A stretch of DNA of 36,670 nucleotides, taken from positions 1 through 36,670 of the IMG/VR virus record IMGVR_UViG_3300043399_001128; one strand, 5' to 3'. The notes beneath the pieces are model-generated. The model saw only the letters and a list, made by a program, of their open reading frames with translations. It was not told the origin of the DNA and made no database searches. Position numbers and translations under genes: made by a program. This document shows positions 7,370-28,929 of this stretch, in pieces. Source of the DNA: a virus. How positions within the stretch are numbered: the first letter of the stretch is position 1; each line of letters starts with the position of its first letter.

Positions 7370-7373
7370 GGGA

Positions 7374-8857: not shown

Positions 8858-8864
8858 GGTCAGT

Positions 8865-11656: not shown

Positions 11657-12094
11657 TCAACGGATTCTGCGGGACATGAGGAACGGGATGAGGGATTGGC
11701 GCTTCACCTGGTACGTGTGACCAGAGAGCACGCCGAGGACCTCGCGGGACTCAGCCCAGCGCACGACCGACCGGCGGTGGACGGTGAACCGGAGCGAGAG
11801 CTGGCTGCATGCGATCCACTCCGCGAGGGAGTGACCGATGATGCTTTGGATGGCGGACTCGGGATCGGACTCGACGCGGATCCCGCGGGAGTAGGCCAGG
11901 AGGGACTCGGTCCAGATGCGGACCTCGCGCCGCTCGGCATCCGCCCTGCGAAGGTCGAACGTGTACTCGAGCTCGCCGGACTCGCAGAGGGCCGCGACGC
12001 TCTGCGCGTCCAGACCGAGGACGGCCCGGGCCGTGTCCACGCTGATGAGCGTGGTGTGCGCCGTCACCGGGAGTTGGAGAGCGAGCTGTTTCAC
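11657..12094 (-). CDS. Small HTH-type protein
   Basis: This is a 145-residue protein. An N-terminal module (about 16-75) has the layout of an excisionase/MerR-type winged helix: LISVDTARAVLGLDAQSVAALCESGELEYTFDLRRA, then EVRIWTESLLAY. A second helix-turn-helix-like piece lies at about 90-140 (SLAEWIACSQLSLRFTVHRRSVVRWAES). It begins four bases inside the upstream gene (ATGA) and ends 4 bp before the 303-residue gene. It is likely a DNA-binding regulator of the early region; its target is unknown. Confidence 0.65.
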   Translation of the reverse strand: MKQLALQLPVTAHTTLISVDTARAVLGLDAQSVAALCESGELEYTFDLRRADAERREVRIWTESLLAYSRGIRVESDPESAIQSIIGHSLAEWIACSQLSLRFTVHRRSVVRWAESREVLGVLSGHTYQVKRQSLIPFLMSRRIR

Positions 12095-14646: not shown

Positions 14647-14666
14647 GATAGCGCCCGGCGCAGTGC
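14647..14666 (+). promoter_or_regulatory. Repeated dyad element, copy 1 (before the lysis block)
   Basis: GATAGCGCCCGGCGCAGTGC is identical over 20 bases to 28435-28454 and similar to 19807-19826. It contains GCGCC-C-GGCGC. It lies 5 bp after the stop of the zinc-ribbon gene and about 150 bp before the lysis-type gene. It is a candidate late-activator site or structured RNA. Confidence 0.5.
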
Positions 14667-14815
14667 AGTGCCTCACCGGAGGTGAGAGTGTGGAGCCTGA
14701 AACGGACGTGGAGGGCGGAGACACAGTGAACACCACGGCCCCCGGCTGCTGAACAGCCGTTGTCTCCGGCTAGAACCTCCTCGTGCAGCACGGGGGTCAC
14801 CTGGAGACACTGCCC
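14667..14815 (+). other. Structured untranslated leader of the late operon
   Basis: No gene is seen here. Hairpins are visible: CTCACC-GGA-GGTGAG (14672-14686), and a longer closing stem CGGAGACA (14716-14723) with TGTCTCCG (14761-14768). The latter encloses ACGGC/GCCGT (14735-14739 with 14756-14760), which competes with GGCTG/CAGCC. The nested design suggests a folded RNA leader. A downstream GTGCAGCAC hairpin is weak. No known riboswitch is recognised. Confidence 0.4.
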
Positions 14816-15523
14816 GTGAACACTCGCACCGGTCCGCTGATTTTCGTCCTGCTGCTCGTCCTGCTCGGTCTGTTCCTCGCGCCTCTGGCTGTCATGAGCC
14901 AGGAGGCAATCCCTTTGCCCCCCGACCTCGCCGCGGATCTGGCGCGCCCCCTCGTGGTGCAGGTCGTCGAGAGTCATCCCTGGGTGGCGACGCTGCTCCT
15001 GCTGATGGGCGGCCTGCGTCTGGTCTGCAAACCCCTTATGAGCCTGGTGCGGGCCCGTGTGGCGGCGACGCCCTCGACGGACGACGACGCGCAACTCCAA
15101 CGCATCACGTCCTCGTGGTGGTATCAGGCCCTCGCGTGGAGCCTGGACTTCTTCGCATCGGTCAAGATCCCGCATCCCGCGTCCCGTTCTACCGTGGTCT
15201 CCGCCGCTTCCGTTGAGCGGGGTGCGGCATCCCTCCTGGCTCTCGGATTCGCATTCATCACGGCGAGCGTCGTGAGCGGGTGTGCGTCCTTCAAAACCGT
15301 CCAGATCGACGAACGCAATGAGCACACCGGAGAAGGAAGAATCGAAACCAGAGTGGCGGCCCGCACGCTCTTCACGTCCAAGTCGACCCTCACGCAGTTC
15401 AAGGCCACTCAGACCGAGAGGAGTCAGGGCGCCGAGGTCGGCGGACTCACCCAGCAATCCAGCGGCACCAACGCCGTCAAGGCCCTCGAAGCCCTCGACT
15501 CCATCCTCGGGAAAATCCGCTGA
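14816..15523 (+). CDS. Holin-like membrane protein with fused lipoprotein-like C-terminus
   Basis: This protein is 235 residues from the GTG at 14816; a longer form would start at 14783. Three hydrophobic segments are seen: about 5-28 (GPLIFVLLLVLLGLFLAPLAV), about 55-72 (HPWVATLLLLMGGLRLV), and about 140-160 (ASLLALGFAFITASVVSGC). The part up to about 120, with SWWYQALAWSLDFFASVKIP, looks like small phage holin-region membrane proteins. The third hydrophobic segment ends in a lipobox-like VVSGC. It is followed by about 80 polar residues of a type seen in phage lipoproteins (ASFKTVQIDE ... ARTLFTSKSTL ... QQSSGTNAV). An in-frame GTG at 15194 could produce the lipoprotein separately. Role in lysis is inferred. 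Confidence 0.6.
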   Translation: MNTRTGPLIFVLLLVLLGLFLAPLAVMSQEAIPLPPDLAADLARPLVVQVVESHPWVATLLLLMGGLRLVCKPLMSLVRARVAATPSTDDDAQLQRITSSWWYQALAWSLDFFASVKIPHPASRSTVVSAASVERGAASLLALGFAFITASVVSGCASFKTVQIDERNEHTGEGRIETRVAARTLFTSKSTLTQFKATQTERSQGAEVGGLTQQSSGTNAVKALEALDSILGKIR

Positions 15524-15632
15524 GCGCGCCGCCACGTCTGATGATCTGGCCGAGGCGGCACGCGCGGGAGTGATCCCGGAGTGGTTCCGCCAGGTGGATC
15601 GGGCCGCAGTCGCAGAACTACGCAAACCATGA
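15318..15632 (+). CDS. Out-of-frame overlapping ORF in the lysis block
   Basis: This 104-residue frame overlaps the previous gene by about 205 bp in another frame. The first two thirds are Ser/Arg/Pro-rich (RPSRPSRSSRPLRPRG) and could simply mirror the other frame. The C-terminal 36 residues (ATSDDLAEAARAGVIPEWFRQVDRAAVAELRKP) lie beyond the overlap and look like genuine protein. The stop overlaps the next ATG (ATGA), as at most real junctions here. No ribosome site is seen at 15318; a GTG at 15282 is an alternative, and a frameshift from the previous gene is another. Nested pairs of this kind occur in phage Rz/Rz1 lysis genes. Confidence 0.4.
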   Translation: MSTPEKEESKPEWRPARSSRPSRPSRSSRPLRPRGVRAPRSADSPSNPAAPTPSRPSKPSTPSSGKSAERAATSDDLAEAARAGVIPEWFRQVDRAAVAELRKP

Positions 15633-15955
15633 TCGCCGAAATCTCATCCAATGCGCAGGCCAACGGAGGTCTGTGGATCGCCGCCGGCCTTGCCGCGTTG
15701 GGTGGGGTGCCGGGGGTCATCGCCGTTTTCTCGCTGTTCGCCACGCGGCGCGAGGTGCAGGCGCAGGAACACCGGATCCAGAAGACGGAGGAGGCCCTCA
15801 AGGAACTGCACCGCGACCTGCACGCGATGGAGAACCGCATCACCGAGGCCGGCGAGAAACGCGCCGTCGCCTTGCACGAGCGGACGAACGAAATCCTGTC
15901 TGCCGTCTCCGAATTGAGGGGACGGTTCGAGGCCACGACCCATCACCGCCGATGA
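15629..15955 (+). CDS. DUF2730-like (Mu gp25-type) membrane coiled-coil protein
   Basis: This is a 108-residue protein. One N-terminal transmembrane segment (about 14-38; LWIAAGLAALGGVPGVIAVFSLFA) is followed by a long coiled coil (about 40-105; REVQAQEHRIQKTEEALKEL ... HAMENRITEAGEKRAV ... ILSAVSELRG). Mu-like phages carry such a protein of unknown role (gp25, DUF2730) just before gp26, gp27 and the terminase, which is the order found here. The layout also resembles an inner-membrane spanin. Starts by ATGA overlap. Confidence 0.65.
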   Translation: MIAEISSNAQANGGLWIAAGLAALGGVPGVIAVFSLFATRREVQAQEHRIQKTEEALKELHRDLHAMENRITEAGEKRAVALHERTNEILSAVSELRGRFEATTHHRR

Positions 15956-16206
15956 CCGCTGACGCAAAACTATTCGTCCTCCGTGCGCTGCGCCGCATGG
16001 ACGGGACACCGTTCCCCGAGGAGAGCCTGATCCAGAGCGTACAGGTTGCGTTTCCGCATCCGGTGCCGTCCATGGATGAGGTGCGGACGCTGCTGTCTGA
16101 CATGGAGGCCGAGGGCTGGATCTCCGCCCACACGGACTCGCTCACGGGCAAACGCCAGTGGGTGCTGACGTCCAAGGGCACGGCGCGCGCCGTGCAACTC
16201 CGCTGA
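15952..16206 (+). CDS. Mu gp26-like winged-helix protein
   Basis: This 84-residue protein starts by ATGA overlap. It contains a winged-helix pattern: AKLFVLRALRRMDGTPFPEESLIQSVQVAF, then SMDEVRTLLSDMEAEGWI, then a wing SAHTDSLTGKRQWVLTSKGTARAV. The WVLTSKGTARA end is typical of DNA-binding small phage proteins of the Mu gp26 type found directly before the DUF3486 gene. Probably a DNA-packaging accessory or regulator. Confidence 0.7.
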   Translation: MTADAKLFVLRALRRMDGTPFPEESLIQSVQVAFPHPVPSMDEVRTLLSDMEAEGWISAHTDSLTGKRQWVLTSKGTARAVQLR

Positions 16207-16208
16207 TC

Positions 16209-16775
16209 ATGCCACGCAAAACCCGCAGCGACTCGTCACCGTTCGACCGGTTCCAGACGGAGCTGGATCAATGGCTGACGGTCGAGAACCTCTCCTATGA
16301 GGACACGCTCACGCGCCTCCGCGGCGTGTGGCCTGCGGGGGAGCGCGTGCCTTCGAAGTCCGCGCTGGCACGCTGGGCGGACAAGCGCAGGCAAGAGCTG
16401 GTGCTCGAACGCATCGCGGCCAGTGCGGCCAAGGCTAAGCAGGTCACGGGTGCGTTTGCCGAGAATCCCGGCGATGCCTACGGCGCTCTCCTGGGCATGA
16501 TCGGACAGGCGGCGTTCGAGATGCGTCTCCAGAAGGGCGACGCACTCGACATCGACACCCTCAAGGATCTGGCCGAGGTCGTGCAGGTGGGCCTGCGATC
16601 GCGCAACGAGGATGCCAAGCTCCGCATCCGCGAACAGGAGCTGGCACTCAAGGAGCGGCGCATCGTCCTGCTGGAGAAACAGAGTGCCGACGCCACTGCC
16701 ACGCTCGGCTCCAACGAGCTGAGCGAGGAACAGAAGATGGCGCGCTTCCGCGAGATCTTCGGAATCAAGGTCTGA
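16209..16775 (+). CDS. DUF3486-like protein, probable small terminase subunit (Mu gp27-type)
   Basis: This 188-residue protein starts 2 bp after the gp26-like stop. The N-terminal part (MPRKTRSDSSPFDRFQTELDQWLTVENLSYEDTLTRLRG) followed by VPSKSALARWADKRRQEL (about 50-68) is a DNA-binding HTH layout. From about 75 on the protein is helical, with a coiled coil at 125-165 (EDAKLRIREQELALKERRIVLLEKQ). The C-terminus MARFREIFGIKV is a common end of small terminase subunits. In Mu the equivalent gp27 is part of the packaging machinery. The large subunit follows 3 bp later. Confidence 0.85.
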   Translation: MPRKTRSDSSPFDRFQTELDQWLTVENLSYEDTLTRLRGVWPAGERVPSKSALARWADKRRQELVLERIAASAAKAKQVTGAFAENPGDAYGALLGMIGQAAFEMRLQKGDALDIDTLKDLAEVVQVGLRSRNEDAKLRIREQELALKERRIVLLEKQSADATATLGSNELSEEQKMARFREIFGIKV

Positions 16776-16778
16776 GCC

Positions 16779-18164
16779 ATGGCAGCCTCACCACGCGACC
16801 TACTGCTGCCGTACCAGCGCCATTGGGTCGAGGACACCAGCCGGTTCAAGATCGCGCTCCAAGCCCGGCAGACGGGCAAATCGTTCGGCACTGCCGAGGA
16901 GGCCGTGGCCGATGCCATGGCCCGCAAAACGACGTGGGTCATCGGATCTGCCGGCGAACGCCAGGCATTGGAGTGGATGCTCAAGGCGCGCGAGTGGATC
17001 GAGGCGTACGGGCTCGCGGTCGAGGACTATCAGGAGATCCGCGATCACGGCGAGGCCCTGCTCAAAAACGCCGAAGCGAAGCTCTCGAACGGCTCCCGCA
17101 TCATCGCGGTGCCGGCCAACCCGTCGACGATGCGCGGCTACTCGGCCAACCTCGTCCTGGACGAGTTCGCATTTCACGAGGATCCCGACGCGATCTGGCG
17201 CGCCATCTATCCCTCGATCAGCAATCCGCTGAAGGGGGAGTACAAGATCCGGATCGTCTCCACTCCCAACGGCACCGGCAACAAGTTCGCCGACATCTGG
17301 CGCAAATCCGTCCGGTGGACGCCTGACCGTGGCCCGGTGAAAAAGGGCGAGTGGTCCGGCCACTTTGTGGACATCCACACGGCCGTGGCCATGGGCCTCG
17401 GCGTGGACATCGAGGAGCTGCGCAAGGGCCTCGACGATCCCGAGGGATGGGCGGTCGAGTACGAGTGCCAGTTCCTCGACTCCGCCTCGGTGCTGCTGCC
17501 GTACGAGGTCATTGCCCTCATCGAGAATCCCCTCGCGACCGTCAGCCAGCCGATGGAGTTCTGGTTGGGGAACGGACCGCAGCCGATTGATCTGGGGATC
17601 GATTTCGGCCGGAAAAAGGACCTGACCGTGTGTTGGGCGTTGGAGGACATCGGCGGCTTCGGCATGACCAAGGAAGTGCTGGAGATCGAGAAGACCCCCA
17701 CGCCGCGTCAGGTGGAGATCCTGACTCCACGCATCGAGCGGGCTCGCCGTGTGTGCCTGGACTATACGGGTCCCGGCGTGGGCCTGGGTGATTACCTGGT
17801 GAAGGAGTTCGGGGAGTATAACCCGGACAAACACCTGTACGGGAAAATCGAGTTGGTCACGTTCAACCAGGGCAACAAGGTGGAGCTGATGTCCAAGCTC
17901 CGCATGCGGGCGGACTCACGCATGCTGGGCATCCCGGCCACGCGCACCATCCGCGAGGATCTGCACTCCATGCACCGCGTGACCTCGCCGGGTGGCGGGG
18001 TGACGTACCGGGCCGCTCACACTCCCGATGGTCACGCCGACCGTTGCGTCGCTCTCGCGCTCGCCAACCGGGCTTCCAGCGGGTCACGGACCCCGTTCGT
18101 TTACTCGCCGGTCGGCCGTCCACCCCGGGGAAGCCGGTTGCGGGGCGGAAGGAGGGCAATGTGA
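16779..18164 (+). CDS. Terminase large subunit (Mu gp28-type)
   Basis: This 461-residue protein is the ATPase-nuclease motor that packages DNA into the prohead. The ATPase domain has Walker A ARQTGKS (29-35), an AVPANPSTMRGYS segment (110-122), Walker B LVLDEF (125-130) and the coupling motif STPNG (161-165). The RNase H-like nuclease has DLGIDFGRKKDLTV (Asp275), VCLDYTG (Asp328) and PDGHADRCVALALAN (Asp417/Asp421). In transposable phages it packages by headful from a host-flanked end, which explains the short foreign left flank. The C-terminus is basic (PVGRPPRGSRLRGGRRAM). Confidence 0.93.
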   Translation: MAASPRDLLLPYQRHWVEDTSRFKIALQARQTGKSFGTAEEAVADAMARKTTWVIGSAGERQALEWMLKAREWIEAYGLAVEDYQEIRDHGEALLKNAEAKLSNGSRIIAVPANPSTMRGYSANLVLDEFAFHEDPDAIWRAIYPSISNPLKGEYKIRIVSTPNGTGNKFADIWRKSVRWTPDRGPVKKGEWSGHFVDIHTAVAMGLGVDIEELRKGLDDPEGWAVEYECQFLDSASVLLPYEVIALIENPLATVSQPMEFWLGNGPQPIDLGIDFGRKKDLTVCWALEDIGGFGMTKEVLEIEKTPTPRQVEILTPRIERARRVCLDYTGPGVGLGDYLVKEFGEYNPDKHLYGKIELVTFNQGNKVELMSKLRMRADSRMLGIPATRTIREDLHSMHRVTSPGGGVTYRAAHTPDGHADRCVALALANRASSGSRTPFVYSPVGRPPRGSRLRGGRRAM

Positions 18165-18296
18165 CCCCGTCTAAATGCCCGCAGGAGCGTTTTTGGGGTA
18201 TGTGGACACCACCCAACCCCCTCCGATCGATTTGCAGAGCCTTTGCGCTCATTTGCAGAAGCACCGCAACGGGCCTGTAGATCCCATTTTAACCTC
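18165..18296. other. Non-coding gap between terminase and portal genes
   Basis: This is a gap of 132 bp in an otherwise packed operon. No gene, terminator or ribosome site is seen. It has two TTTGCAGA copies (about 18230 and 18251) and a GTTTTTGGGG stretch. A promoter cannot be identified with confidence. Confidence 0.3.
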
Positions 18297-19811
18297 ATGA
18301 AGACCCAATCCGCTCTCGACGCCGTCCGAATCCGCAATCAGCGGATGTTTCTGGGTAACCCGCTGCGCTCGCTGACGCCTGAGTCCCTCTCCTCGCAGCT
18401 CGACCAGTTCGAGGCGGGGGATCTGCGGTCCGCCGCGCAGACGTGGGCGATCATGGAGCGGCGTTCGCCGGTGCTCGGGTCGGTGGCCCGCAAGCGGTAC
18501 AAGAGCATCAGCCGTCTCCCGTGGTCCGTGCTGACCGTCGACGAGAGTCCGGAGGCCACGGCACACCAGGAGGTCCTTAAAAAGTTTTGGGACGGCATCC
18601 GTGTGACCGACGCAATGGAGCGGAACCGACAGGGCGGCGTCGCGTTGCTGCTCGCTCAGGCCGCGACCTGCATCGGCCACCGGTTCGCGGTCCACGAGAT
18701 CGTCTGGAAACCGGAACCGGGCAACCTGTCGGCGACGTTCACCCGGATCCCGCTGTGGTTTTTCGAGAATCGCACGGGCGAACTGCGGTACCTCACCGGC
18801 GACTATGCAATGGAGGGCGTCCAGTTGGAGCCCGCCGGATGGCTCGTGACGTGTGGCGATGGTCTCATGGAGGCCACAAGCCTTTTGGTGATGCAGACCG
18901 GGATGGCGCTCGGGGACTGGCTCGGGTACTCGGAGCGGTTCGGCATCCCTGGGCAGGCGTGGAAGACGGACGCAAAACCGGGGAGCGAGGAATGGGGGCA
19001 GGTCGAGACGGCCGCCGCGGCGTTCAGCTCCGACTTTGCCTGCGTGATCCCCAAGGGTACGGAGGTGACGACGATCGAGGGCGGCAACACGGGCGCGATG
19101 CCGCAGTCGATCCTCGTCGAGTATTTGGAACGCCGCATCGTGACGCTCTGGCGTGGGGCAGATCTGGGGACGATGTCGCAGGGAGCGGGCGGTGTGGGTG
19201 CGTCCCTCCAGGGCGATGAGACGGAGATCCTCGCCGAGGACGATGTGCAGGCGCTGAGCGAGGCCCTGCAACACCAGGTGGAGCGGTACGTCATCCAGTG
19301 GTATTTCGGACCAGGCGTGGAGCCGAAGGCCTACTTCAAGTTGACCCTGCCCGAGGGCGACAGCACCGAGCGCGACCTCAAGGTCGATCAATTCCTGCAC
19401 ACCGCGGGCGTGCCGATGTCCGTGGCGGATGTTGCCGAGCGGTACGGCCGCGAGTTGCCGGCCGCGGGCGAGGAACTCCTCAAGCCCGCGGCGCCGCCCG
19501 CCCCGCCGATGGGCATGGGCGGACCCATGGGTACGACGCTGAGCCAGCTGGCCAACCAACGCACCAGCCTCGACCAGATGGCCGAGGCCGTGGCCACGTC
19601 CATGGGGCCGGTGCGTGAGCGTCTGCGGATGATCGGCGAGATCACGGACCCGAAGGCGCAGCGAGAGGCGTTGATGTCCCTGCGTCTCGATCTGCCGCGG
19701 TTGCTGCGGCAGGTCTCGACGGACCCAACAACGGTGCGCGTCATGGAGCGCGTGATCGGTGGCAGCGTGGTCAGCGGGCTGCTGACGGCACCAGAGGACA
19801 CCGCGAAATAG
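18297..19811 (+). CDS. Portal protein, DUF935 family (Mu gp29-type)
   Basis: This is a 504-residue protein. The N-terminal region shows the DUF935 layout: NPLRSLTPESLSSQLDQFEAGDLRSAAQTWAIMERRSPVLGSVARKRYKSISRLPW (about 20-76). A middle domain runs to a long central region containing GTEVTTIEGGN and YLERRIVTLWRGADLGTMSQG. The last third has FLHTAGVPMSVADVAERYGRELP, a flexible Gly/Pro/Met-rich piece (APPAPPMGMGGPMG, about 395-412), and a helical C-terminus. Portals form the dodecameric ring at the head vertex through which DNA enters. Its place after the terminase is standard. There is no clear ribosome site at the ATG. Confidence 0.88.
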   Translation: MKTQSALDAVRIRNQRMFLGNPLRSLTPESLSSQLDQFEAGDLRSAAQTWAIMERRSPVLGSVARKRYKSISRLPWSVLTVDESPEATAHQEVLKKFWDGIRVTDAMERNRQGGVALLLAQAATCIGHRFAVHEIVWKPEPGNLSATFTRIPLWFFENRTGELRYLTGDYAMEGVQLEPAGWLVTCGDGLMEATSLLVMQTGMALGDWLGYSERFGIPGQAWKTDAKPGSEEWGQVETAAAAFSSDFACVIPKGTEVTTIEGGNTGAMPQSILVEYLERRIVTLWRGADLGTMSQGAGGVGASLQGDETEILAEDDVQALSEALQHQVERYVIQWYFGPGVEPKAYFKLTLPEGDSTERDLKVDQFLHTAGVPMSVADVAERYGRELPAAGEELLKPAAPPAPPMGMGGPMGTTLSQLANQRTSLDQMAEAVATSMGPVRERLRMIGEITDPKAQREALMSLRLDLPRLLRQVSTDPTTVRVMERVIGGSVVSGLLTAPEDTAK

Positions 19812-19826
19812 CGCCGGGCACCGTGC
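19807..19826 (+). promoter_or_regulatory. Repeated dyad element, diverged copy (before the protease gene)
   Basis: AATAGCGCCGGGCACCGTGC matches 16 of 20 bases of the elements at 14647 and 28435. The TAG is the portal stop codon. It precedes GCGCA-A-CTCCC ... GGGAG-GA-TGCGC, a nested hairpin (about 19824-19855). It lies just before the protease gene. Confidence 0.4.
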
Positions 19827-19848
19827 GCAACTCCCCAGAGGTGGGAGG

Positions 19849-21087
19849 ATGCGCGGCGTGGACGACGTTTTCGAGATGCGCGGCGGGGTAGGATCCGGCA
19901 AGGGACTGGATCTGCTGCGGTCTCCTCTTTCCGCCGTTACGACCCCGGCGGTTAGGCGTGGGTTGGCGATTCGCCATAGCCCTGACTCACGCCGCTCCTT
20001 TCAATTCGCCAACGAGGGCGAGACCCGCTGTGAGCTGACCAACACGGCCGCGGCTGTCGGTGAGGACGGCTGGGCGCAGATCGCGCCCTTCGGGGATTTC
20101 CCTGGCATGGTCACGGAGGTCCTCCCTGGTGGCGGTGTGAAGGGCAAGCCCGCCCCGGCCATCCAGCGGATGGACCGCACCGCGGCGGAGGCGATGGTCG
20201 CGCATTTCAACAGTGCGACATCCCGCATCATGCGCTGGCTGCGCGGCGTGCCGATCTTCAGCGGCCATCCGGATTTCCCTGGTGCCGGCAACCGATACCC
20301 GGACAAGGGGCACAAGGGCGTGATCGCGCAGCTTCAGGTCCGCAACGATGGACTCTATGCGCTCCCTGTGTTCAACGGCGACGGTCAGGCGCTGATTCAG
20401 TCGCAACCAGGTCTGGGATTCTCCGCCCGCTGGACCGCGGAACCTGTGGAGGTCGTCAACGGCGTCCATGTGCTGCGTCCCACCCAACTCATTTCCGCCG
20501 GGCTCACGACCCAGCCAAACCTTCCCGTCCAACTGATCAACGAAACCTATATGGATCTGTCCGCACTCATTGCCGCTCTCAAGCGGATGGGCGTCACCGT
20601 CGCTGACGGTGCCGACCTCGCAGCCATCACCGCCGCCATCACTGCCGCAGCCGAGAAGGCCGAGGCGGACAAGGCTGCGTCCACCACGCAGGCCGCCAAT
20701 GAGCGGCCTGCCCTCACCACCGCGCAGGGCGAGGTCAATCGCCTGGCTGCGTTGCTCACGGCGCGCACCAACGCGCATGCCACCTCCCTGATCGACGAGG
20801 CCATACGCGGCGGACGTGCGACCGAGGCGGAGCGCGCGACGCTCGCCGGTCAGTTCGCGAACGATTTCAACAGCGCCGCCGCGCAGCTCGCCACGCGTGC
20901 CGCGACGCATCTCAAGACCACGCCCACCGCCACCGTGCAGCCTGGCACCGGTGCCGCGGCGAACATGCAGACCCGCCAAGCCATGGCTCAGCAGTTCATC
21001 AACGAGCGCATGCAGAAGGGCGCGACCTACAACGAGGCGTTCAACGCTGTTAAGGCCGAGAAGCCGGAGCTGTTCGGCCTCAAGTAA
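19849..21087 (+). CDS. Head maturation protease / scaffold (Mu I/Z-type)
   Basis: This protein is 412 residues from the ATG at 19849. A GTG at 19858 fits the upstream GGGAGG better, and the N-terminal ~55 residues look poorly conserved, so the start is uncertain. The protease half has GVPIFSGHPDFPGAGNRYPDKGHKGVIAQLQVRNDGLYALPVFN (about 133-177), then LGFSARWTAEPVEV and HVLRPTQLISAGLTTQPNLPVQL, the conserved order of Mu gpI proteases. The C-terminal half from about 240 is Ala-rich and helical (ADGADLAAITAAITAAAEKAEADKAAST), the scaffold part. It guides capsid assembly and then cleaves the scaffold. Confidence 0.85.
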   Translation: MRGVDDVFEMRGGVGSGKGLDLLRSPLSAVTTPAVRRGLAIRHSPDSRRSFQFANEGETRCELTNTAAAVGEDGWAQIAPFGDFPGMVTEVLPGGGVKGKPAPAIQRMDRTAAEAMVAHFNSATSRIMRWLRGVPIFSGHPDFPGAGNRYPDKGHKGVIAQLQVRNDGLYALPVFNGDGQALIQSQPGLGFSARWTAEPVEVVNGVHVLRPTQLISAGLTTQPNLPVQLINETYMDLSALIAALKRMGVTVADGADLAAITAAITAAAEKAEADKAASTTQAANERPALTTAQGEVNRLAALLTARTNAHATSLIDEAIRGGRATEAERATLAGQFANDFNSAAAQLATRAATHLKTTPTATVQPGTGAAANMQTRQAMAQQFINERMQKGATYNEAFNAVKAEKPELFGLK

Positions 21088-21122
21088 TCGACCCAACCGA
21101 CAACCATCCAACGACCACTCCC

Positions 21123-21296
21123 ATGGCCGATCGAAACGAAACCATCCAGGCGCTCGCCCGTGAGCGCGTGAAGTTGTCCGGCGGCGCGCTGTCGCCCGAA
21201 GACGCGATCCTCGTCGCCACCAGTCAGGTCGAGGCTGACGAAGCCGCGGCCGGTGCTGAGAAGAAGACCAAGGCCACCAAGGCCGAGAAGTCCTGA
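21123..21296 (+). CDS. Very small charged head-region protein
   Basis: This is a 57-residue protein between the protease and decoration genes, reading MADRNETIQALARERVKLSGG at the start. It has an acidic middle (SPEDAILVATSQVEADEAA) and a Lys-rich end (EKKTKATKAEKS). It is placed like the small unnamed proteins beside Mu gene T. Upstream is a C/A-rich leader without a ribosome site, as for the neighbouring head genes. Function unknown; a minor head component is possible. Confidence 0.6.
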   Translation: MADRNETIQALARERVKLSGGALSPEDAILVATSQVEADEAAAGAEKKTKATKAEKS

Positions 21297-21330
21297 ACCG
21301 TAGACCCAAACACCCATCACTATCGTCCGA

Positions 21331-21825
21331 ATGAACAAAGTCAAAAACCTGATCCACCTCGCCACCGCGGCTCTTGCGGCCGTGGCGCGGATCGACCGAC
21401 GGACTCACTATGAGTTCGCAAACATCGCCGAGGGCACCTACGAAACCGGGTGCATGAGCCGCCTGACGGATGCCGCGATCACCCGTCGACATCTGGTTGT
21501 GGCGGTCGGCTCCACCATCAATCACGTGGCGCTGGCCGGCGTGACTTCCATCGCCCTGGGCGTCGTCGACGACGAGGCCGAGGCAGCTGAGGATCCCGTG
21601 AACGTGCAGCTGCTCGGCAACAAGCCGGGCACCGTGCTCATGGTAGCCTCCGCGGCCATCACGGCCGGCGCGCAGGTTGTGACCGCGGCGGACGGCAAGA
21701 TCCGTACCTTGCCTGTTGCGACGGGCACCTACCACATCATCGGGCGCGCCCTGGAGGCGGCTAACGGGGACAACGATGTGATCAACGTCCAGCACTGTTA
21801 CCCGATCCAACGCATCGTCGCCTGA
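21331..21825 (+). CDS. Capsid decoration (cement) protein, DUF2190-like
   Basis: This 164-residue beta-rich protein precedes the capsid gene. The pattern AAITRRHLVVAVGSTINHVALAG (about 49-71), VMVASAAITAGAQVVTAADGKIRTLP (about 104-130) and GTYHIIGRALEAANGDNDVINV (about 131-153) is the usual signature of DUF2190-type cement proteins, which bind the outer surface of the expanded capsid and stabilise it. The position directly before the major capsid gene fits. No ribosome site is seen at the ATG. Confidence 0.85.
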   Translation: MNKVKNLIHLATAALAAVARIDRRTHYEFANIAEGTYETGCMSRLTDAAITRRHLVVAVGSTINHVALAGVTSIALGVVDDEAEAAEDPVNVQLLGNKPGTVLMVASAAITAGAQVVTAADGKIRTLPVATGTYHIIGRALEAANGDNDVINVQHCYPIQRIVA

Positions 21826-21854
21826 TCGGATCCCACAACATCACCAGTCATCAC

Positions 21855-22853
21855 ATGAGTAAGACTCTCAGCTCTGCAATTCTGGCCAGCACCGTTGCCG
21901 GCATCATCATTGACGGCCAGTACAACCAGCCGGGTCTCCACCTGGCCAACGAATCGCGATTCGTCGAATCGCACTTCTCCGAGCCTCTGACCACGTACGC
22001 CACTGGCTGGCGTGATCCGGAGAATCTGGAGGAGACCTTGGACTTCGTCGCACCCGCCGTGGAGGTTGGGCGTCGATTCGAGTTCAAGCGTGCCGACAAC
22101 GCCCAGGAGTTCCTGAGCGAGACGATCGACGACCTGCGCGCCATCGGGGCCGATTTCAAGCGCGTCCAGTATTCGAGCAGCAGCGTGCAGGCGAAGACGC
22201 TGCCGCGAGGCCTGACCGAGATCGTCGATCTGGACACCGTCACGGGCAACAACTGGGAACAGGAGGCGGTTGCCCGCATGCAACGCCGGCTTCTCCGCAA
22301 CTCCGTGCGGCGCGCCATCGCCGGCATCACGGCGGCCGCAACCAACACCAACAGGGTGTGGGCTACGTCTGCCGATCCGGATCAGGACGTGGCTGACGAT
22401 CTCGAAACAGCCACCACTGCCTCCGGTATCCGGCCCAACCGCATCCTCTACGGATCCGGCGCGTGGAATCTCCGGCGACGCACGTTCCGTGCCCAGAACA
22501 CCGCTGGCTCCAACGCTTCGGCTCGCATGTCCCTGACGGATCTCGCCGATGAGATGATGGTCGACGCGATCAGGGTGTCACGTGAGAGATTCCAGAGCGG
22601 TGCCACGACGAAGAGTGAAATCGTCGGAATGCGCCAGATCAGCTTCTACGCCGATCCGATGGCAAACACTGTGGACCCCTCGAACATCAAGCGGTTCATT
22701 TCCATGCACGACGCCAACCAGGGCGGCGGACGTTGGCTGGTCTACCGCCACCAGAAGAGCGCGAAGCTCATCGAGATCACGGTGGCCCACTACGAGAACA
22801 TCATCATCACCTCGACGCTCGGCATCCGCCAGATCACCGCCAGCGCGAGCTAA
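21855..22853 (+). CDS. Major capsid protein
   Basis: This is a 332-residue protein. The N-terminal arm (LASTVAGIIIDGQYNQPGLHLANE) and the body with EVGRRFEFKRADNAQEF, SSVQAKTLPRGLTEIVDLD, RNSVRRAIAGITAAATN and IRPNRILYGSGAWNLRRRTFRA fit a phage capsid of the HK97 fold. The last third has a conserved-looking ISFYADPMANTVDPSN and HYENIIITSTLGIRQI. I assign it by position (after protease and decoration protein), size and composition. It does not look close to Mu gpT. It is followed by a terminator-like hairpin, consistent with separate high-level expression. Confidence 0.8.
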   Translation: MSKTLSSAILASTVAGIIIDGQYNQPGLHLANESRFVESHFSEPLTTYATGWRDPENLEETLDFVAPAVEVGRRFEFKRADNAQEFLSETIDDLRAIGADFKRVQYSSSSVQAKTLPRGLTEIVDLDTVTGNNWEQEAVARMQRRLLRNSVRRAIAGITAAATNTNRVWATSADPDQDVADDLETATTASGIRPNRILYGSGAWNLRRRTFRAQNTAGSNASARMSLTDLADEMMVDAIRVSRERFQSGATTKSEIVGMRQISFYADPMANTVDPSNIKRFISMHDANQGGGRWLVYRHQKSAKLIEITVAHYENIIITSTLGIRQITASAS

Positions 22854-22928
22854 CGGAACTCCTACGCGGGCCCATGAGACGCGGCGATCCTGCACATCGC
22901 CACGGAACACGGCCCGATTTCAAACCGG

Positions 22929-22966
22929 CCCGGGAATCGGTCAGGCGAGTCCCGGGCTTCCCTTTT
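22929..22966 (+). terminator. Probable terminator after the capsid gene
   Basis: CCCGGGA (22929-22935) pairs with TCCCGGG (22950-22956) around a 14-base loop and is followed by CTTCCCTTTT. It is a reasonable but imperfect intrinsic terminator just before the next ATG at 22971. It may lower expression of the downstream genes relative to the capsid gene. Confidence 0.45.
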
Positions 22967-22970
22967 CCAA

Positions 22971-23438
22971 ATGGCCACCGTCGCCTGGGTCACCCTCACC
23001 GCTGCCGACATCGAGGCCCGCATTCCGAGCGTCGCGCTTGCCTCGCTGCGCGAGCGCCACAACCTCGACGGCAACGATCCCCTCGCGGTCCTCATCCGCG
23101 ACACGGTCGCCCGGGTCCGCCAGTCGATTGCCTCCTGCGAGGACTACGTCCTGGATGCCACCACGACGACGATCCCACCCGAGCTGCTCGATGACGCCGC
23201 ATGGATCGTCTGCTGCGCGATCATGCTCCGTGTGCCGGACGTCATGCCGACGACGGACGACCACCGAACCCGCCTGCGCCTTGCCGAGGAGAACCTCGCA
23301 AAGGTCGCCGCGTGCGATCTGGCCATCAGCACGCCCACCACTGCCGGCGACGCCACCACCCAAACCACGGGCGGCGTGTCCGTGGTCAGATCCCGACCGC
23401 AACTCAACACCCGCGAACGCCTCAGGGGCCTGATCTGA
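22971..23438 (+). CDS. Head-tail adaptor, DUF1320-like (Mu gp36-type)
   Basis: This is a 155-residue protein. Helical N-terminus: TAADIEARIPSVALASLRERHN, then DPLAVLIRDTVARVRQSIASC, LDDAAWIVCCAIMLRVP and HRTRLRLAEENLAKVAACDLAI. The order (short N-terminal helix, V-R-x-x-I, an L-x-x-A-A-x-x-I helix and an A-E-x-x-L helix) is that of Mu gp36/DUF1320 adaptors, which sit under the portal. The C-terminal tail is Thr-rich (TPTTAGDATTQTTGG). The stop overlaps the next start (TGATG). Confidence 0.8.
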   Translation: MATVAWVTLTAADIEARIPSVALASLRERHNLDGNDPLAVLIRDTVARVRQSIASCEDYVLDATTTTIPPELLDDAAWIVCCAIMLRVPDVMPTTDDHRTRLRLAEENLAKVAACDLAISTPTTAGDATTQTTGGVSVVRSRPQLNTRERLRGLI

Positions 23439-24100
23439 TGCCCACCCTTTTCACCCGCATCCTGGACAACGGCGGCAACGGCATCCCGGGTCACGTCATC
23501 CGGCTGCGTCGCCGGTGGGGTATCTCCGGCCGCGTTGGTGCCGTGACAGCGTCCGGAGACATTCTGGCGGTGACTGACTCGACCGGGTTCGTCACGCAAT
23601 CGATCTTGGGCGGCGAGTACCGCATCTGGATCGGCGATGCCGAGCCGCGGCGGATCGTCGTCCCCGACGACGATGGCACGTATCTCATCGAGGATCTGAT
23701 TGGGGTCACGGGCGGGGTCGCCAACCTCACCTATCGGTACCAGGACGCCGAGTTGCAGGTGCTCAACGGCACAACCGGAGGCTGGCATGGCTTCCGGGTC
23801 ACAGGAGACGAGGGAGAGGAGGTCGTGGCGATCGACCCCGTAGTGGGCGTCACCGCGAATTACAAATGGGAGGGCGGCACACTTCTGATCCGCAACGCCG
23901 GCACCAATGCCTGGCATGCCATCCATCTGACCGGGGCAACGCCGCAGTTCGCACTGGGTGCGGACGGGGAGTTGCTTTCAGGCAATGCCCGCACCACCGC
24001 GGGCAAGCTCCAGCTGCTGAACGTCACCACCGACCTATACCACTCCATCTATCTCACCGGCACGGCATCCTCGTGGGTGATCGCCGCCGGTGAAGCCTGA
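23438..24100 (+). CDS. Beta-repeat protein between adaptor and spike genes
   Basis: This is a 220-residue protein. The N-terminal ~110 residues (FTRILDNGGNGIPGHVIRLRRR, TASGDILAVTDSTGFVTQSILGGEYRIWIGD) resemble a fibronectin- or transthyretin-like beta domain. The rest consists of three related units of about 40-50 residues: ELQVLNGTTGGWHGFRVTG, TLLIRNAGTNAWHAIHLTG and KLQLLNVTTDLYHSIYLTG. Each has L-x-x-x-N-x-x-T-x-x-x/W-H-x-I/F-x-L/V-T-G followed by a short strand. This is typical of beta-structured phage tail or spike accessory proteins. It is coupled to the adaptor gene by TGATG and followed 4 bp later by the spike gene, so it may anchor or chaperone the spike. Confidence 0.65.
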   Translation: MPTLFTRILDNGGNGIPGHVIRLRRRWGISGRVGAVTASGDILAVTDSTGFVTQSILGGEYRIWIGDAEPRRIVVPDDDGTYLIEDLIGVTGGVANLTYRYQDAELQVLNGTTGGWHGFRVTGDEGEEVVAIDPVVGVTANYKWEGGTLLIRNAGTNAWHAIHLTGATPQFALGADGELLSGNARTTAGKLQLLNVTTDLYHSIYLTGTASSWVIAAGEA

Positions 24101-24103
24101 CCT

Positions 24104-27040
24104 ATGATCCAACGACTCCTGCTCTGCTTGCTCCTTGCGCCGTTGGTTGCGCTGCATGCCCAGCTGCCGAGGCCCGTGGCACTGAGTGTGAGCGTGAACA
24201 CCAACGGCGTGGTCATCGCCCCCGCCTCATTTTGGGCGGCGAACAGCAACCTCATGTCCGCGGCATCGCCTCCTGCCCGCGGAGCGGTCACCAACATCGG
24301 ATGGAACTCACGTCATTTCACCGTCAGCGGGACGAATGTTTCGCTCGCGGCCACGTGGTCCATGACCAACGCGCTGCTCATGTCGTTCGGGTTGACGAAC
24401 AACTTCGAGGTCGGCGACGCCAACAACCTGACCTTGGACGGCGTCAACACCGGCATTTACGGGGTGGAATCCCTTTACGCGGACGGCGGAATAACAACGG
24501 TTCGCGGGCTGACCAACCTCAACCTCATCACACCCCGGGTCTATGCGGGCAGCGCATTGTCCGGCCAGTACCTGAGACTGTCAGACGACCTTGAGGGGAC
24601 GGTGGAGTACGCGGATGTCGTCGAATCAGTCGCGAGCGTCAGCCAAATGCTCACCCTGTCTGGCCGGACCACCAAATCGGTTCGCACCCTGGGTTACACA
24701 TCGCCGGGAGACGGAGGCGGAGGGGTCTACTACTGGACCAACTCGACCACCTCGACCAATGCGTTTGGCGGCAGAATCAGCAATGGTACCGGGTCGTGGG
24801 TCCTGCTCGATCGACCCGCCAACTTTTTCCAATTCGGGGTTCGCGCCGGAGATGCGACACAGGGATCCAACAACGCCGCCCGGATGCAGTCTGCCATTGT
24901 CTGGGCTGCTGCTGGGGGGCACTTGGTCCTGCCAAACATTGGATCCACCGTGTTTGTGGGTCCAAACAGCGTCCGGCCCAACACAGCGATCACGAACCTG
25001 ACCATCGAGATCCACGGAACCATTCAGGTTCCCGCGTCCGCCACTTGGTCGACAGCGCATCCCTCCCTGTTTCATTTTGCCGACTCGGGGACCCACAACA
25101 ATTTCGCGATCATCGGCACAGGAACGATCCACGGCAATGCGACCAACCAGACCACATCGGTGGGGCAAAACTACGGGAAGCAGGTGGGGCTGTGGATAGA
25201 CAGTGCCACAAACGTCATGGTCCGGGGAATCCGGCTGGAGGCTTTCGGGAGTTTCGCCCTCTACCTGCGGAATTGTGACAACGCGCACCTACGCGATCTG
25301 CACATCAGCCAGATCCACGGGAACAATGACACGCTGCCTGAGCGGTGGGGTGCCAACGCGGACGGCATCCACGTCGGCAACAGTCGCAACGTGTCCGTGA
25401 TCGGCTGCGACATCGAATCGACGGACGACTGCGTGGCGTTCACCCAATACGCAGCGGGTCAGTACAGCACCAACTTTCTGGTCGCGGGGAATATCCTGAG
25501 ACCCTACGCCCCAAATCCCACCAATGTGCCCAGTGGCGTCCGGCTTGGGTCCGAGTCCGGAATCACCAACACGTGGATCACGGACGTGCTGATTCAGGGG
25601 AATGTGATCAAGCCTGTGGGAGCAAATGGAATGTACCTGGGCGTCCTTGCCTCGACGACGTCACGCGAGCTGAAACGGTTGCGGATCTCCGGGAACATCA
25701 TTGACGGAGCGAACCGGTCGGGAGTGGTGGAAATCGGGCCTCACGCCGGCACCGCGACAACCCACAATTCCGTCTACTCAGGAGGCATCATCCTGCAACA
25801 TGCGGATGACGCCGTGATCGAGGGCAACACCATCGTCAATGCGCGATCCAAGGCCGTGGGCCTGGCGGACTGTGGACAGGTGATCGTGCGCGGAAACGTC
25901 GTCAGCAACATCATCGACTCCGTGGGTGGAGGCACTCCGCGCGGCGTGGGTATCCACCTTCAGTGGTCCTCCTACGGTGACACGGAGGATGTGACGATTC
26001 AGGACAACGTGATCACCGGCACGGACGGTGGATCCGTCCACGGGGTCGGAGCGTCATTCAATACCCGCGTATTGAGAGTCCGAAACAACCTGATGACGTC
26101 CTGGCTCAGGGGTCTCTACTCCGGGCAGGGGCGCGCCCATCCGGCCGTGCTGGCCAGTCGTGGGCTGACCAACCTGATCGATGGGAATCGATTCGCAAAC
26201 GGCGAGGGATCGACGATCGTGATTGCGGCATCCAACACCTCCAGCCGTCACGAGATCCTCAACAACACGATGCCCTTTCGGATCGTGACACCGGGATCCG
26301 GAGTGGGTGGCACGGAACACATTCGCGTGACGTTGAGCGGATCAACAGCCGGCGGCCTGGTGCGGATCAACGGCAACACCATCGGGGGTTACGACGGCCG
26401 AGCCATAACGATGGAAAACATCGGGTCAGCATACATTCTGGGGAACCAATTCATTCCGGACGAGCTAGCGTCCTCCGTCAGCGCGGAGATGATCTATGCC
26501 AATTACACCTCTGGATCCTCCGGTACCGGCATTTACGTCGTCGGTAACAACGTCGCGCATATCACGAGCAAGCTGGGCAGCAATCCATCCACCTTTTTTC
26601 GCACGCTGAACAACAACGGATCCGGTGGCTCGACCGTGACTCTGACGACCGTCGCGGCACAGAACATCATCACGCCTTCGTCTGGGATGGCTCACGTGCT
26701 TGACGCGTTCGCGGGTGGGGCACGCGACCTGACGTTCGGATCAACGACGACCATCCCAAACTCGTCGGAGATGCCCGTCAGACACCGGGTAGCATTGACT
26801 GGAGACACAACGTTGGCCTGGACAAGCCCGAGCCCTGGCCAGCGCGGCGCGCTGGACATTTATCCGGACACATCCACGCGCACGGTCACCCTGCCGACGG
26901 CCGCGTATTCACCCACCGGGGCAACGTTCAGCGTGGCCGGCGGAACGGGATCAACCAACTACGTGCGGATGATGTGGGAGGTCCATCAGGTGGGTGGAAC
27001 AAACCGCATCACTGTTGTGCCACAACTGGTGTATCGGTGA
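24104..27040 (+). CDS. Right-handed beta-helix protein with Sec signal peptide (tailspike/depolymerase-like)
   Basis: This is a 978-residue protein. Residues 1-20 (MIQRLLLCLLLAPLVALHAQ) are a textbook signal peptide with a likely cut after ALHA. An Asn/Thr-rich region (20-230) follows. From about 240, after FFQFGVRAGDATQGSNNAARMQSAI, a pectate-lyase-type parallel beta-helix extends to about 860: many N-x-V/I turns such as NVSVIGCDIESTDDCVAF, DVLIQGNVIKP, LRISGNIIDGANRSG, DAVIEGNTI, VIVRGNVVSNII, VTIQDNVITG. The C-terminus is a beta domain. Such helices degrade or bind polysaccharide. A signal peptide is odd for a virion spike. It lies among head genes, between the adaptor and the F-like gene. 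It is either a spike or an exported enzyme. Confidence 0.8.
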   Translation: MIQRLLLCLLLAPLVALHAQLPRPVALSVSVNTNGVVIAPASFWAANSNLMSAASPPARGAVTNIGWNSRHFTVSGTNVSLAATWSMTNALLMSFGLTNNFEVGDANNLTLDGVNTGIYGVESLYADGGITTVRGLTNLNLITPRVYAGSALSGQYLRLSDDLEGTVEYADVVESVASVSQMLTLSGRTTKSVRTLGYTSPGDGGGGVYYWTNSTTSTNAFGGRISNGTGSWVLLDRPANFFQFGVRAGDATQGSNNAARMQSAIVWAAAGGHLVLPNIGSTVFVGPNSVRPNTAITNLTIEIHGTIQVPASATWSTAHPSLFHFADSGTHNNFAIIGTGTIHGNATNQTTSVGQNYGKQVGLWIDSATNVMVRGIRLEAFGSFALYLRNCDNAHLRDLHISQIHGNNDTLPERWGANADGIHVGNSRNVSVIGCDIESTDDCVAFTQYAAGQYSTNFLVAGNILRPYAPNPTNVPSGVRLGSESGITNTWITDVLIQGNVIKPVGANGMYLGVLASTTSRELKRLRISGNIIDGANRSGVVEIGPHAGTATTHNSVYSGGIILQHADDAVIEGNTIVNARSKAVGLADCGQVIVRGNVVSNIIDSVGGGTPRGVGIHLQWSSYGDTEDVTIQDNVITGTDGGSVHGVGASFNTRVLRVRNNLMTSWLRGLYSGQGRAHPAVLASRGLTNLIDGNRFANGEGSTIVIAASNTSSRHEILNNTMPFRIVTPGSGVGGTEHIRVTLSGSTAGGLVRINGNTIGGYDGRAITMENIGSAYILGNQFIPDELASSVSAEMIYANYTSGSSGTGIYVVGNNVAHITSKLGSNPSTFFRTLNNNGSGGSTVTLTTVAAQNIITPSSGMAHVLDAFAGGARDLTFGSTTTIPNSSEMPVRHRVALTGDTTLAWTSPSPGQRGALDIYPDTSTRTVTLPTAAYSPTGATFSVAGGTGSTNYVRMMWEVHQVGGTNRITVVPQLVYR

Positions 27041-27864
27041 GCGCTTTACCCTTCCAGGACGCCCTGAACAGCCTGCGCCGCCGGGGCGTGTTGCCCACGT
27101 CGCTCAGCACGGCCGACATCGAACGGTTGCCGCAGTGGATCCGCGACCAGGCGTTTTTCTCCGCCCGCGTGGCGCAGGCGGAGATCCTGGATGGGATGAT
27201 GTCCCGGATCGACACGCTCCTCGGCGGCGGGGAACGCGGGCCCGGGCTGGGGATGGATCCGGCCCTGTTCCGCGTCGAGATGCGGCAGCTGCTGGATAGC
27301 GTGTCCTACGAGCCCACGCCGGACGACGCGGGCACGATCAAGGATCTGCGGAGCGAGGCTCGCCTGAACGTCATCGTGCGCACGCAGGAGCAGATGGCCA
27401 CGGGTCACGGCCAATTCCTGCAATCGACGGATCCGGAGATCATCGATCTGTATCCCGCATGGGAGCTGATCCGGCTGCGGGACTCCCGGGTGAAACGCGA
27501 CTGGACCACCCGATGGAGCGAGGCCGCCGGTGCCGTGGGTGACACGGACGCGCTGCGCATGCTCTCCGAGCAGGGTCGGATGATTGCGCGGAAGGACTCG
27601 CCGATCTGGACCCAGCTGAGCCGGTTCGGGCGGCCGCATCCGCCGTTCGATTTCAACTCGGGGATGGACGTCGAGGATGTCGATCGCACCGAGGCCCTCG
27701 CCATCGGCCTCATCCGGCCCACCGATCGCGTGCGCGTGGAGCCGCCGCCGCCGCCGTCCGCGCAGGCCAACCTGCGGGACATGGATCCCCAGATGCGCAG
27801 CGCGCTCCTGGGCTCGTTGCCGGGCTTCCGCATGGACGGTGCAGGGGTGTTGCACGCCGCATGA
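27037..27864 (+). CDS. Minor head / head-morphogenesis protein (Mu gp30/F-like)
   Basis: This is a 275-residue protein from a GTG that overlaps the spike stop (GTGA). Helical N-terminus with LPFQDALNSLRRRGVLPTSLSTADIERLPQWIRDQAFFSARV; then DAGTIKDLRSEARLNVIVRTQEQMATGHG (about 104-132), YPAWELIRLRDSRVKRDWTTRWSEA (about 147-171) and FGRPHPPFDFNSGMDVEDVDR (about 200-220). R-x-x-x-R-x-W and the aromatic/acidic end are the pattern of F-like minor head proteins that bind the portal inside the prohead. In Mu this gene directly follows the portal; here it is about 7 kb later. Confidence 0.7.
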   Translation: MSALPFQDALNSLRRRGVLPTSLSTADIERLPQWIRDQAFFSARVAQAEILDGMMSRIDTLLGGGERGPGLGMDPALFRVEMRQLLDSVSYEPTPDDAGTIKDLRSEARLNVIVRTQEQMATGHGQFLQSTDPEIIDLYPAWELIRLRDSRVKRDWTTRWSEAAGAVGDTDALRMLSEQGRMIARKDSPIWTQLSRFGRPHPPFDFNSGMDVEDVDRTEALAIGLIRPTDRVRVEPPPPPSAQANLRDMDPQMRSALLGSLPGFRMDGAGVLHAA

Positions 27865-28439
27865 ACATCCGCCTCCAGATCACCGACACCGCCACGCCTG
27901 GACTCCAGGACGCGGTCAACACGCTGACGCACCGGCGGGCGGCCAAAGTCGCCGGCATGGCCGTGCGGGTGCTGATCCGGAAACACCTCGAGGCAAAGCA
28001 GCGTCTGCCGAACAAGCAGAACTTCCCAAAGACCAACTGGTACGCTCGAGCGCGGGACCGCGTGATGTACGTGGAGGACGGCATCGGTGTCGCGGTGGTG
28101 ATTGATTTCCCAGGCTTCGCGATGCGGTACACCGGCGACCCCGCCGTGATCCGGCCGGTGAACGCCAAAAACCTCGCCATCCCGATGCACCCGATGGCCT
28201 ACGGACGCAGGCCTCGGGAGTTCAAGGACCTCATTTTTATCCCGGTGCTGCGCGGCCGCACCACGGGCATTCTCGCGATGCAGGTGGGTGTGGGTTCGGC
28301 GAAGGTCTGGATCAACCTCTACCGCCTGGTGAAGTTCGTGAAGACCAAGGCGGACCCGACGATGCTGCCCACGGAACGTGAGTTGCAGGACACAGGCTAC
28401 GCCGCCATCACGGCCGCCGCTGCGGCATCCCTGAGATAG
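27861..28439 (+). CDS. Mu gpG-like virion morphogenesis / tail completion protein
   Basis: This 192-residue protein starts by ATGA overlap. A small alpha/beta protein: IRLQITDTATPGLQDAVNTLTHRRAAKVAGMAVRVLIRKHL at the N-terminus, then a beta region with GVAVVIDFPGFAMRYTGDPAVIRPVN and FKDLIFIPVLRGRTTGILA. The position after the F-like gene and the form resemble Mu gpG (virion morphogenesis, tail completion) and HK97 gp10-type proteins. It would join head to tail. The stop codon TAG is part of the repeated element at 28435. Confidence 0.65.
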   Translation: MNIRLQITDTATPGLQDAVNTLTHRRAAKVAGMAVRVLIRKHLEAKQRLPNKQNFPKTNWYARARDRVMYVEDGIGVAVVIDFPGFAMRYTGDPAVIRPVNAKNLAIPMHPMAYGRRPREFKDLIFIPVLRGRTTGILAMQVGVGSAKVWINLYRLVKFVKTKADPTMLPTERELQDTGYAAITAAAAASLR

Positions 28440-28454
28440 CGCCCGGCGCAGTGC
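28435..28454 (+). promoter_or_regulatory. Repeated dyad element, copy 3 (before the tail block)
   Basis: It is 20 of 20 identical to 14647-14666. It lies over the stop codon of the G-like gene and 32 bp before the first tail gene. No promoter hexamers are evident beside it. Confidence 0.5.
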
Positions 28455-28485
28455 CGCATCGGCATGTGGGTGATAGAGCTGGGGT

Positions 28486-28929
28486 GTGGGTTTGCTCGCT
28501 CCACTCCAGGCAAAGATCGCCGAGATCCTCCGGTCACGTGAGGAGATCGCGGCGTCCCCTGCCATCGAGGTCGTCGAGGAGAACAAGGGCGACCTCAACG
28601 CGGCCGTCGCCTCGGCCGTCTCGCGCCTGGGCATTGTGGTGACGGTGCAGACCCCGAGCCTCGATCCGGATCCGGAACACCCACGGTGGGTGCAGGCAAC
28701 GATCGTGATCGAGGTGCAGGAAAACGTCCCGATCAACCGCGGACCCTCCGGTTCCAAACGCACCTGGCTGGAGTTGGCCGAGGCCATCCACGCTGAGCTG
28801 GCAACGATCCAGCCCGAGCCGTTTTGGCAACCATTGGACTTCGGCGGCATCGAGCAAACCACCGAAGGGAACCCAGTGGTTGCCACCATTTCGTTCACCA
28901 CCCGATGCGCCATCGTGCGCGAAACCTGA
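28486..28929 (+). CDS. Tail terminator-like / DUF1834-type protein
   Basis: This is a 147-residue protein from a GTG. LLAPLQAKIAEILRSREEIAAS (helix), then IEVVEENKGDLNAAVASAVSRLGIVVTVQTP and strands WVQATIVIEVQEN and VVATISFTTRCAIVR. The fold (helix, sheet, helix LELAEAIHAEL, sheet) and position before the tail tube gene fit tail terminators of siphoviruses and the Mu gp37/DUF1834 place. It would cap the tail tube for joining to the head. Assigned by position and layout only. Confidence 0.6.
   Translation: MGLLAPLQAKIAEILRSREEIAASPAIEVVEENKGDLNAAVASAVSRLGIVVTVQTPSLDPDPEHPRWVQATIVIEVQENVPINRGPSGSKRTWLELAEAIHAELATIQPEPFWQPLDFGGIEQTTEGNPVVATISFTTRCAIVRET

Follow-up and report, generated by a model that had tools for sequence, protein, structure and literature searches.

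Organization of the phage genome

The window, i.e. the whole stretch of DNA analysed, is an entire virus record of 36,670 bases, and its PHROG and Pfam matches (Table 1) identified it as a Mu-like transposable phage laid out like Pseudomonas phage B3, with the early genes running leftward (13.1 kb to 1.9 kb) and the late genes rightward. A transposase A (phrog_310), a transposition protein B (phrog_296) and Mu-type head genes are present, and the terminase has relatives in named Mu-like phages; together with Gam, the portal, the protease and the capsid, these matches support the comparison with phage Mu made in an earlier sequence-only reading of this DNA. The first gene of the presumed lysis block (14819-15523) matched no family in profile searches, and the genes from 28486-28929 onward are probably neck and tail genes. 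The gpF (gp30)-like gene follows the gp36-like gene instead of standing directly after the portal gene, and between the two lies a region (24104-27040) encoding a protein of 978 aa that matches GH28 and right-handed beta-helix families. A collagen-repeat gene (5243-6583) is located inside the early operon.

Table 1. Features of the window, with positions, strand and basis of assignment.
Feature	Position	Strand	Remarks
Candidate regulator, 132 aa	4441-4839	-	Weak DnaA-domain-IV-type HTH; distal early operon
Gam	6821-7408		PHROG/Pfam match
Transposition protein B	7718-8986		PHROG/Pfam match
Transposase	8865-10811		PHROG/Pfam match
Element copy 1 (GATAGCGCCCGGCGCAGTGC)	14647-14666	+	Before presumed lysis block; dyad centre 14656
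Second shared box AGGTGAGAG	14680-14688	+	24 nt after dyad centre; overlaps 8-nt perfect SD GGAGGTGA
Possible leader ORF, 20 codons	14690-14752	+	GTG start; behind copy 1 SD; may not be a gene
First gene of presumed lysis block	14819-15523	+	Membrane segments; lipobox-like GCASF by eye
gp25-like gene (weaker)	15581-15955		Profile search, 39% probability
Mu gp26-like gene	15952-16206		Profile search, 75% probability, 74 columns
Small terminase	16158-16775		PHROG/Pfam match
Large terminase	16779-18164		PHROG/Pfam match
Portal	18243-19811		PHROG/Pfam match
Element copy 2 (AATAGCGCCGGGCACCGTGC)	19807-19826	+	Between portal and protease genes; dyad centre 19816; TAG is portal stop
Second shared box AGGTGGGAG	19839-19847	+	23 nt after dyad centre
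Head maturation protease (Mu gpI type)	19858-21087	+	Likely GTG start; alternative ATG 19849
Scaffold	21331-21825		PHROG/Pfam match
Capsid	21855-22853		PHROG/Pfam match
Mu gp36-like gene	22971-23438		Profile search
Mu gp30/F-like gene	26974-27864		Profile search
Element copy 3 (identical to copy 1)	28435-28454	+	Between 27861-28439 (192-aa gene) and 28486-28929; dyad centre 28444; TAG is stop of 27861-28439
Second shared box GGGTGATAG	28468-28476	+	24 nt after dyad centre
147-aa protein	28486-28929	+	GTG start; probably tail completion/terminator, from sequence character

A three-copy element in the late region

A search of the window for the 20-mer GATAGCGCCCGGCGCAGTGC yielded two exact copies, and a third copy, AATAGCGCCGGGCACCGTGC, matched it at 16 of 20 bases, all three being located where the sequence-only reading had reported them. 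When the 20-mer was sought with up to three mismatches in 100 shuffles, 0.01 matches were expected and none of the shuffles contained two. It is also the longest exact repeat of the window, tied with a 20-mer inside collagen-type repeats. The genome-wide count proposed in the earlier reading was carried out by scoring both strands of the window over the 15 positions common to the three copies (core TAGCGCC-GGC-C-GTGC), a count that covers the whole record: only the three copies scored 15/15, and the next best site on either strand scored 12/15. All three copies are on the + (late) strand in gaps between late genes, which make up 4.6% of the late region. We conclude that this is a real, specific, three-copy element of the late region, with copy 1 preceding the block at the lysis position and copy 2 preceding the protease gene.

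The TAG of copies 2 and 3 doubles as the stop codon of the preceding gene, whereas in copy 1 it is present without serving as a stop codon, so the TAG belongs to the element and is not merely a stop. Copies 1 and 3 contain a perfect dyad, GCGCC-N-GGCGC, with 5-bp arms and a total length of 11 bp, while the dyad of copy 2 (GCGCC-G-GGCAC) keeps four of the five pairs and has one broken.

Distribution of the element in related contigs

Relatives of the window were sought with the capsid, the protease, one head gene, the transposase and the 132-aa candidate regulator. The capsid, protease and head-gene relatives carried the element in one contig only, IMGVR_UViG_3300035670_007851 (L255; also L015 and L189), whose protease and capsid are 95% and 73% identical to those of the window. 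Copies 2 and 3 are present in this relative at the same gene borders (313-332 and 8956-8975), with all 20 bp unchanged, and the contig ends short of the place of copy 1; since the surroundings are about 90% identical to the window, this conservation is by itself weak evidence. Matches to the core were found in 67 viral contigs, among which only IMGVR_UViG_3300035670_007851 encodes any window protein and only it has two matches. No relative carrying the element was found with the transposase as query, and the 132-aa candidate led to a second contig (L274), covering the early region only, which encodes a 95% relative of the candidate in the same gene order. The collagen-repeat gene of L274 aligns with that of the window over its first 35 residues only, revealing strong variation between close phages. 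In a pattern scan of bacterial genomes, the loci examined among the matches listed encode no window protein and therefore look like chance matches.

Repeats of L191, a distant relative, and of L195 were considered as equivalents of the element and were dropped, being located at start codons or inside genes; in L191, a 20-nt repeat (ACTGACCTATGAAAACACTC) overlaps ATG codons at 6699 and 13276. A whole-contig repeat test on the metagenomic relatives was noisy, with the true relative barely above its control.

Comparison with the late promoters of Mu

In phage Mu, the activator C drives late promoters in front of lys, I and P. The sequence-only reading had assigned the three copies to the three equivalent places: copies 1 and 2 do occupy the positions of the Mu Plys and PI promoters, but copy 3 is found between the gpF-like/192-aa gene pair and a block of probable tail completion and tail genes, and since Mu P comes later, after the tape measure gene, its place differs from that in Mu. 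The layout nevertheless provides a shared site, predicted to be of the activator type, before each late operon (lys, I and tail).

The window thus resembles Mu (Plys, PI, PP and Pmom with C; Pm with Mor) in having a repeated dyad-type site before the lysis, protease and tail genes, and differs from it in the sequence of the site, in the location of the third site at the head/tail border and not at P, in having no recognisable -10 at the Mor/C distance and in that no Mor/C homologue was found. Dyad symmetry is shared with the Mor site, although the dyad measures 11 bp in total in the window compared with 16 bp for Mor. The hexamer TANNNT was absent at 28-35 bp after the dyad centre at all three copies, so that a Mu-type -10 hexamer (about 31 bp after the centre), expected if the copies worked as in Mu, was found at none of them; nor were a sigma-70-like promoter or -10/-35-like hexamers detected at the window sites.

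Lineage-specific repeats in other Mu-like phages

The late gaps of named Mu-like phages were compared pairwise within each genome for ungapped shared sequence, against a shuffled null with 30 replicates. Five of the seven other phages (B3, B23, Rhks, PeaS-P1 and AFS-2018a) have a lineage-specific repeat of their own, usually a dyad, located before the lysis and protease genes and, in three of them, before tail genes too; no such repeat was observed in D3112 and Lsp-JY19 in the same late-gap test. The best pair exceeded the 95% point of the null in B3 (protease/tape measure), B23 (lys/P), Rhks (lys/I), PeaS-P1 (lys/I), AFS-2018a (lys/tail) and the window (lys/copy 3). The highest-scoring pair of Mu, lys/I, reached 10.7 and stayed below its 95% point of 11.7; a 10-bp match between the C-dependent promoters of lys and I has been described (PMC4461284).

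Counted over whole genomes, exactly three perfect dyads, on the late strand and in gaps, were found in Alteromonadaceae phage B23 (CTGAANNNCTTCAGG; lys, I and P at 10242, 17837 and 28422), exactly three perfect dyads in B3 (TTTTCGNNCNNNCGAAAAGC; lys, I and tape measure at 11566, 19835 and 26818) and exactly four in the Pasteurella phage AFS-2018a (MH238466.1; TTTAAANCNCTTTAAAA; 9609, 16819, 22250 and 28202). These repeats of B3, B23 and AFS-2018a were found here and are not described in the literature examined on these phages. A TANNNT lies exactly 30.5 bp after the dyad centre in all four AFS-2018a copies, and 32.5 bp after it in two of the three B23 copies. The Mor dyad in Mu Pm is centred at -43.5 (PMC4287176), which places the -10 hexamer at about the dyad-TANNNT distance of AFS-2018a; the four AFS-2018a dyads with their TANNNT are strong late-promoter predictions.

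The window shares with B3, B23 and AFS-2018a a site that is repeated exactly three or four times in the genome, in gaps on the late strand that precede lys, protease and tail genes, and with B3 also the leftward-early/rightward-late map. The sequences are unrelated, however, a clear TANNNT is seen in AFS-2018a and at two B23 sites, and AFS-2018a and B3, unlike the window, have annotated Mor proteins. In the Rhodobacterales-host phages Rhodovulum phage vB_RhkS_P1 (Rhks) and Pelagibaca phage vB_PeaS-P1, a repeat of the CCCCCGAAAC type is present, as in the window, in the lys and protease (I) gaps, before lysin and protease genes (L264, 11651 and 19543; L268, 18790 and 26725, minus strand), but it lacks clear dyad symmetry and was seen at two sites only. 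PeaS-P1 has been described as lacking Mor (PMC5488378). We take it from these comparisons that Mu-like phages probably often, though not always, carry a repeated site specific to their lineage ahead of lys, I and tail genes, and that the window element would be this phage's version.

Sequences downstream of the copies

A second shared box follows each copy (Table 1). Read as Shine-Dalgarno (SD) sequences, the boxes have 8, 6 and 6 perfect matches, with a chance of 0.0025, 0.036 and 0.036 per stretch, respectively, while most genes of this phage are without an SD. Several window genes begin a few bases after the preceding stop, which, taken with the scarcity of SD sequences, points to a host whose translation is coupled or does not depend on SD sequences. 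If the boxes were real ribosome-binding sites, transcription would start upstream of the element or closer to it than in Mu; alternatively, the box, which at +23/24 adjoins the position where a -10 would be expected, may be part of a promoter in an unusual host.

The GTG starts at 19858 and 28486 are each exactly 42 nt after the dyad centre of copies 2 and 3, and in B3 and B23 an ATG near the protease gene stands 43.5 and 44.5 nt, respectively, from the dyad centre of that phage. Such spacings would suit leaderless late mRNAs, a reading that was considered and set aside: no start lies at this distance from copy 1, and the SD reading competes with it. Nested inverted repeats (GGAGACA...TGTCTCC around GGCTGCTGAACAGCC) were observed at 14719-14775, between copy 1 and the first gene at the lysis position.

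Candidate regulators

HMMER and HHalign searches of all window ORFs with 11 Mor/C-type proteins (from Mu, B3, AFS, Aussie, Mwe-Yong1, D3112, Rhks, PeaS-P1, B23 and Lsp-JY19, some annotated as Mor and others picked by their Mor position) gave nothing significant in this record, which may be incomplete, bearing out the earlier statement that no Mu C homologue is recognisable. The two small HTH proteins put forward in the sequence-only reading both fared poorly: 15952-16206 resembles Mu gp26, a late-gene neighbour, and thus belongs among the late genes, whereas 11657-12094, which precedes the transposase among the early genes and has an HTH match below threshold, falls within the half of the early operon nearest the promoter; in B3 it is the opposite, distal end that carries the Mor-like late activator and GemA as the last early genes.

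The 132-aa candidate (4441-4839) lies in the distal early operon, the position of Mor in Mu and B3, and appears to be better placed than either. It matched the DnaA C-terminal HTH in Pfam with an E-value of 0.028, below the cut-off, and NCBIfam DnaA over the same region (E = 0.2). Its structure model (pLDDT 41.5) was too poor for a fold search, and GemA homology of 3737-4450 was not significant with HMMER/HHalign. A late activator unrelated to Mor/C, perhaps 4441-4839, may have replaced Mor at the same place in the early operon and taken over the late promoters by means of a new site, a history that we regard as doubtful on the present indications.

Interpretation of the element

The repeats of their own that other Mu-like phages carry before the same genes, together with the Mor geometry in AFS-2018a, make a late-promoter reading of the element likely. 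More specifically, it is moderately probable that a late activator encoded by the phage recognises the element, with one site per late operon. We infer the binding protein, its DNA binding at the site, activation and the positions of the transcription starts as follows. The early leftward genes would be expressed first; a product of the early operon, probably in dimeric form, would then bind the TAGCGCC-GGC-C-GTGC site and switch on host RNA polymerase at three rightward promoters, for lysis and packaging, for protease and head, and for neck and tail.

The element might instead act in the late mRNA, marking the gene gap and controlling translation, processing or read-through of the next gene. 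Copies 2 and 3 start at the stop codon of the preceding gene, an SD-like box stands at +23/24 after all three copies in a phage where most genes have none, and a perfect inverted repeat (CTCACC-GGA-GGTGAG) lies over the SD of copy 1; it is this stop-element-SD arrangement that keeps the explanation among the rivals. Copy 1, however, heads the late region, copy 2 loses one dyad pair through its G-to-A difference, and the inverted repeat further downstream does not keep its place in copy 3 and is weaker in the L255 counterpart of that copy. The RNA hairpin raised in the sequence-only reading likewise found no backing, as the folding of 61-nt stretches around the copies did not stand out clearly from that of shuffled sequence (z-scores between -1.66 and +0.45) and an Rfam search returned no match at E ≤ 1, and we regard a role in the mRNA as unlikely.

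It is decidedly unlikely, too, that the element overlaps the core promoter, with transcripts starting directly behind it and a regulator acting either in the -35/-10 spacer, in the manner of MerR-type activators, or as a repressor: a short leader would suit the SD-like boxes, and the conservation is contiguous over 18-20 bp, but -10/-35-like hexamers are missing, and the dyad-TANNNT spacing in AFS-2018a and B23 would place transcription starts about 43 nt downstream of the dyad. Repeated dyads are known to serve transposition, packaging, partition or gyrase in other phages; for the window, another DNA site of this kind, or a mobile repeat without regulatory role, is very improbable given three copies in a single orientation, each before a gene block and none at the record ends, and a layout matched in other Mu-like phages by unrelated sequences.

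If the element is indeed the site of a late activator, late control in Mu-like phages would combine a fixed layout with a freely changing pair of site and activator. Late promoters of uncultivated phages would then be recognisable by motifs repeated in gene gaps, which would also lead to activators missed by homology searches, and testable promoter predictions would be available for B3, B23 and AFS-2018a. Should an activator unrelated to Mor/C have replaced Mor, each lineage of Mu-like phages would have its own set of activator and three or four sites, changing as a unit.
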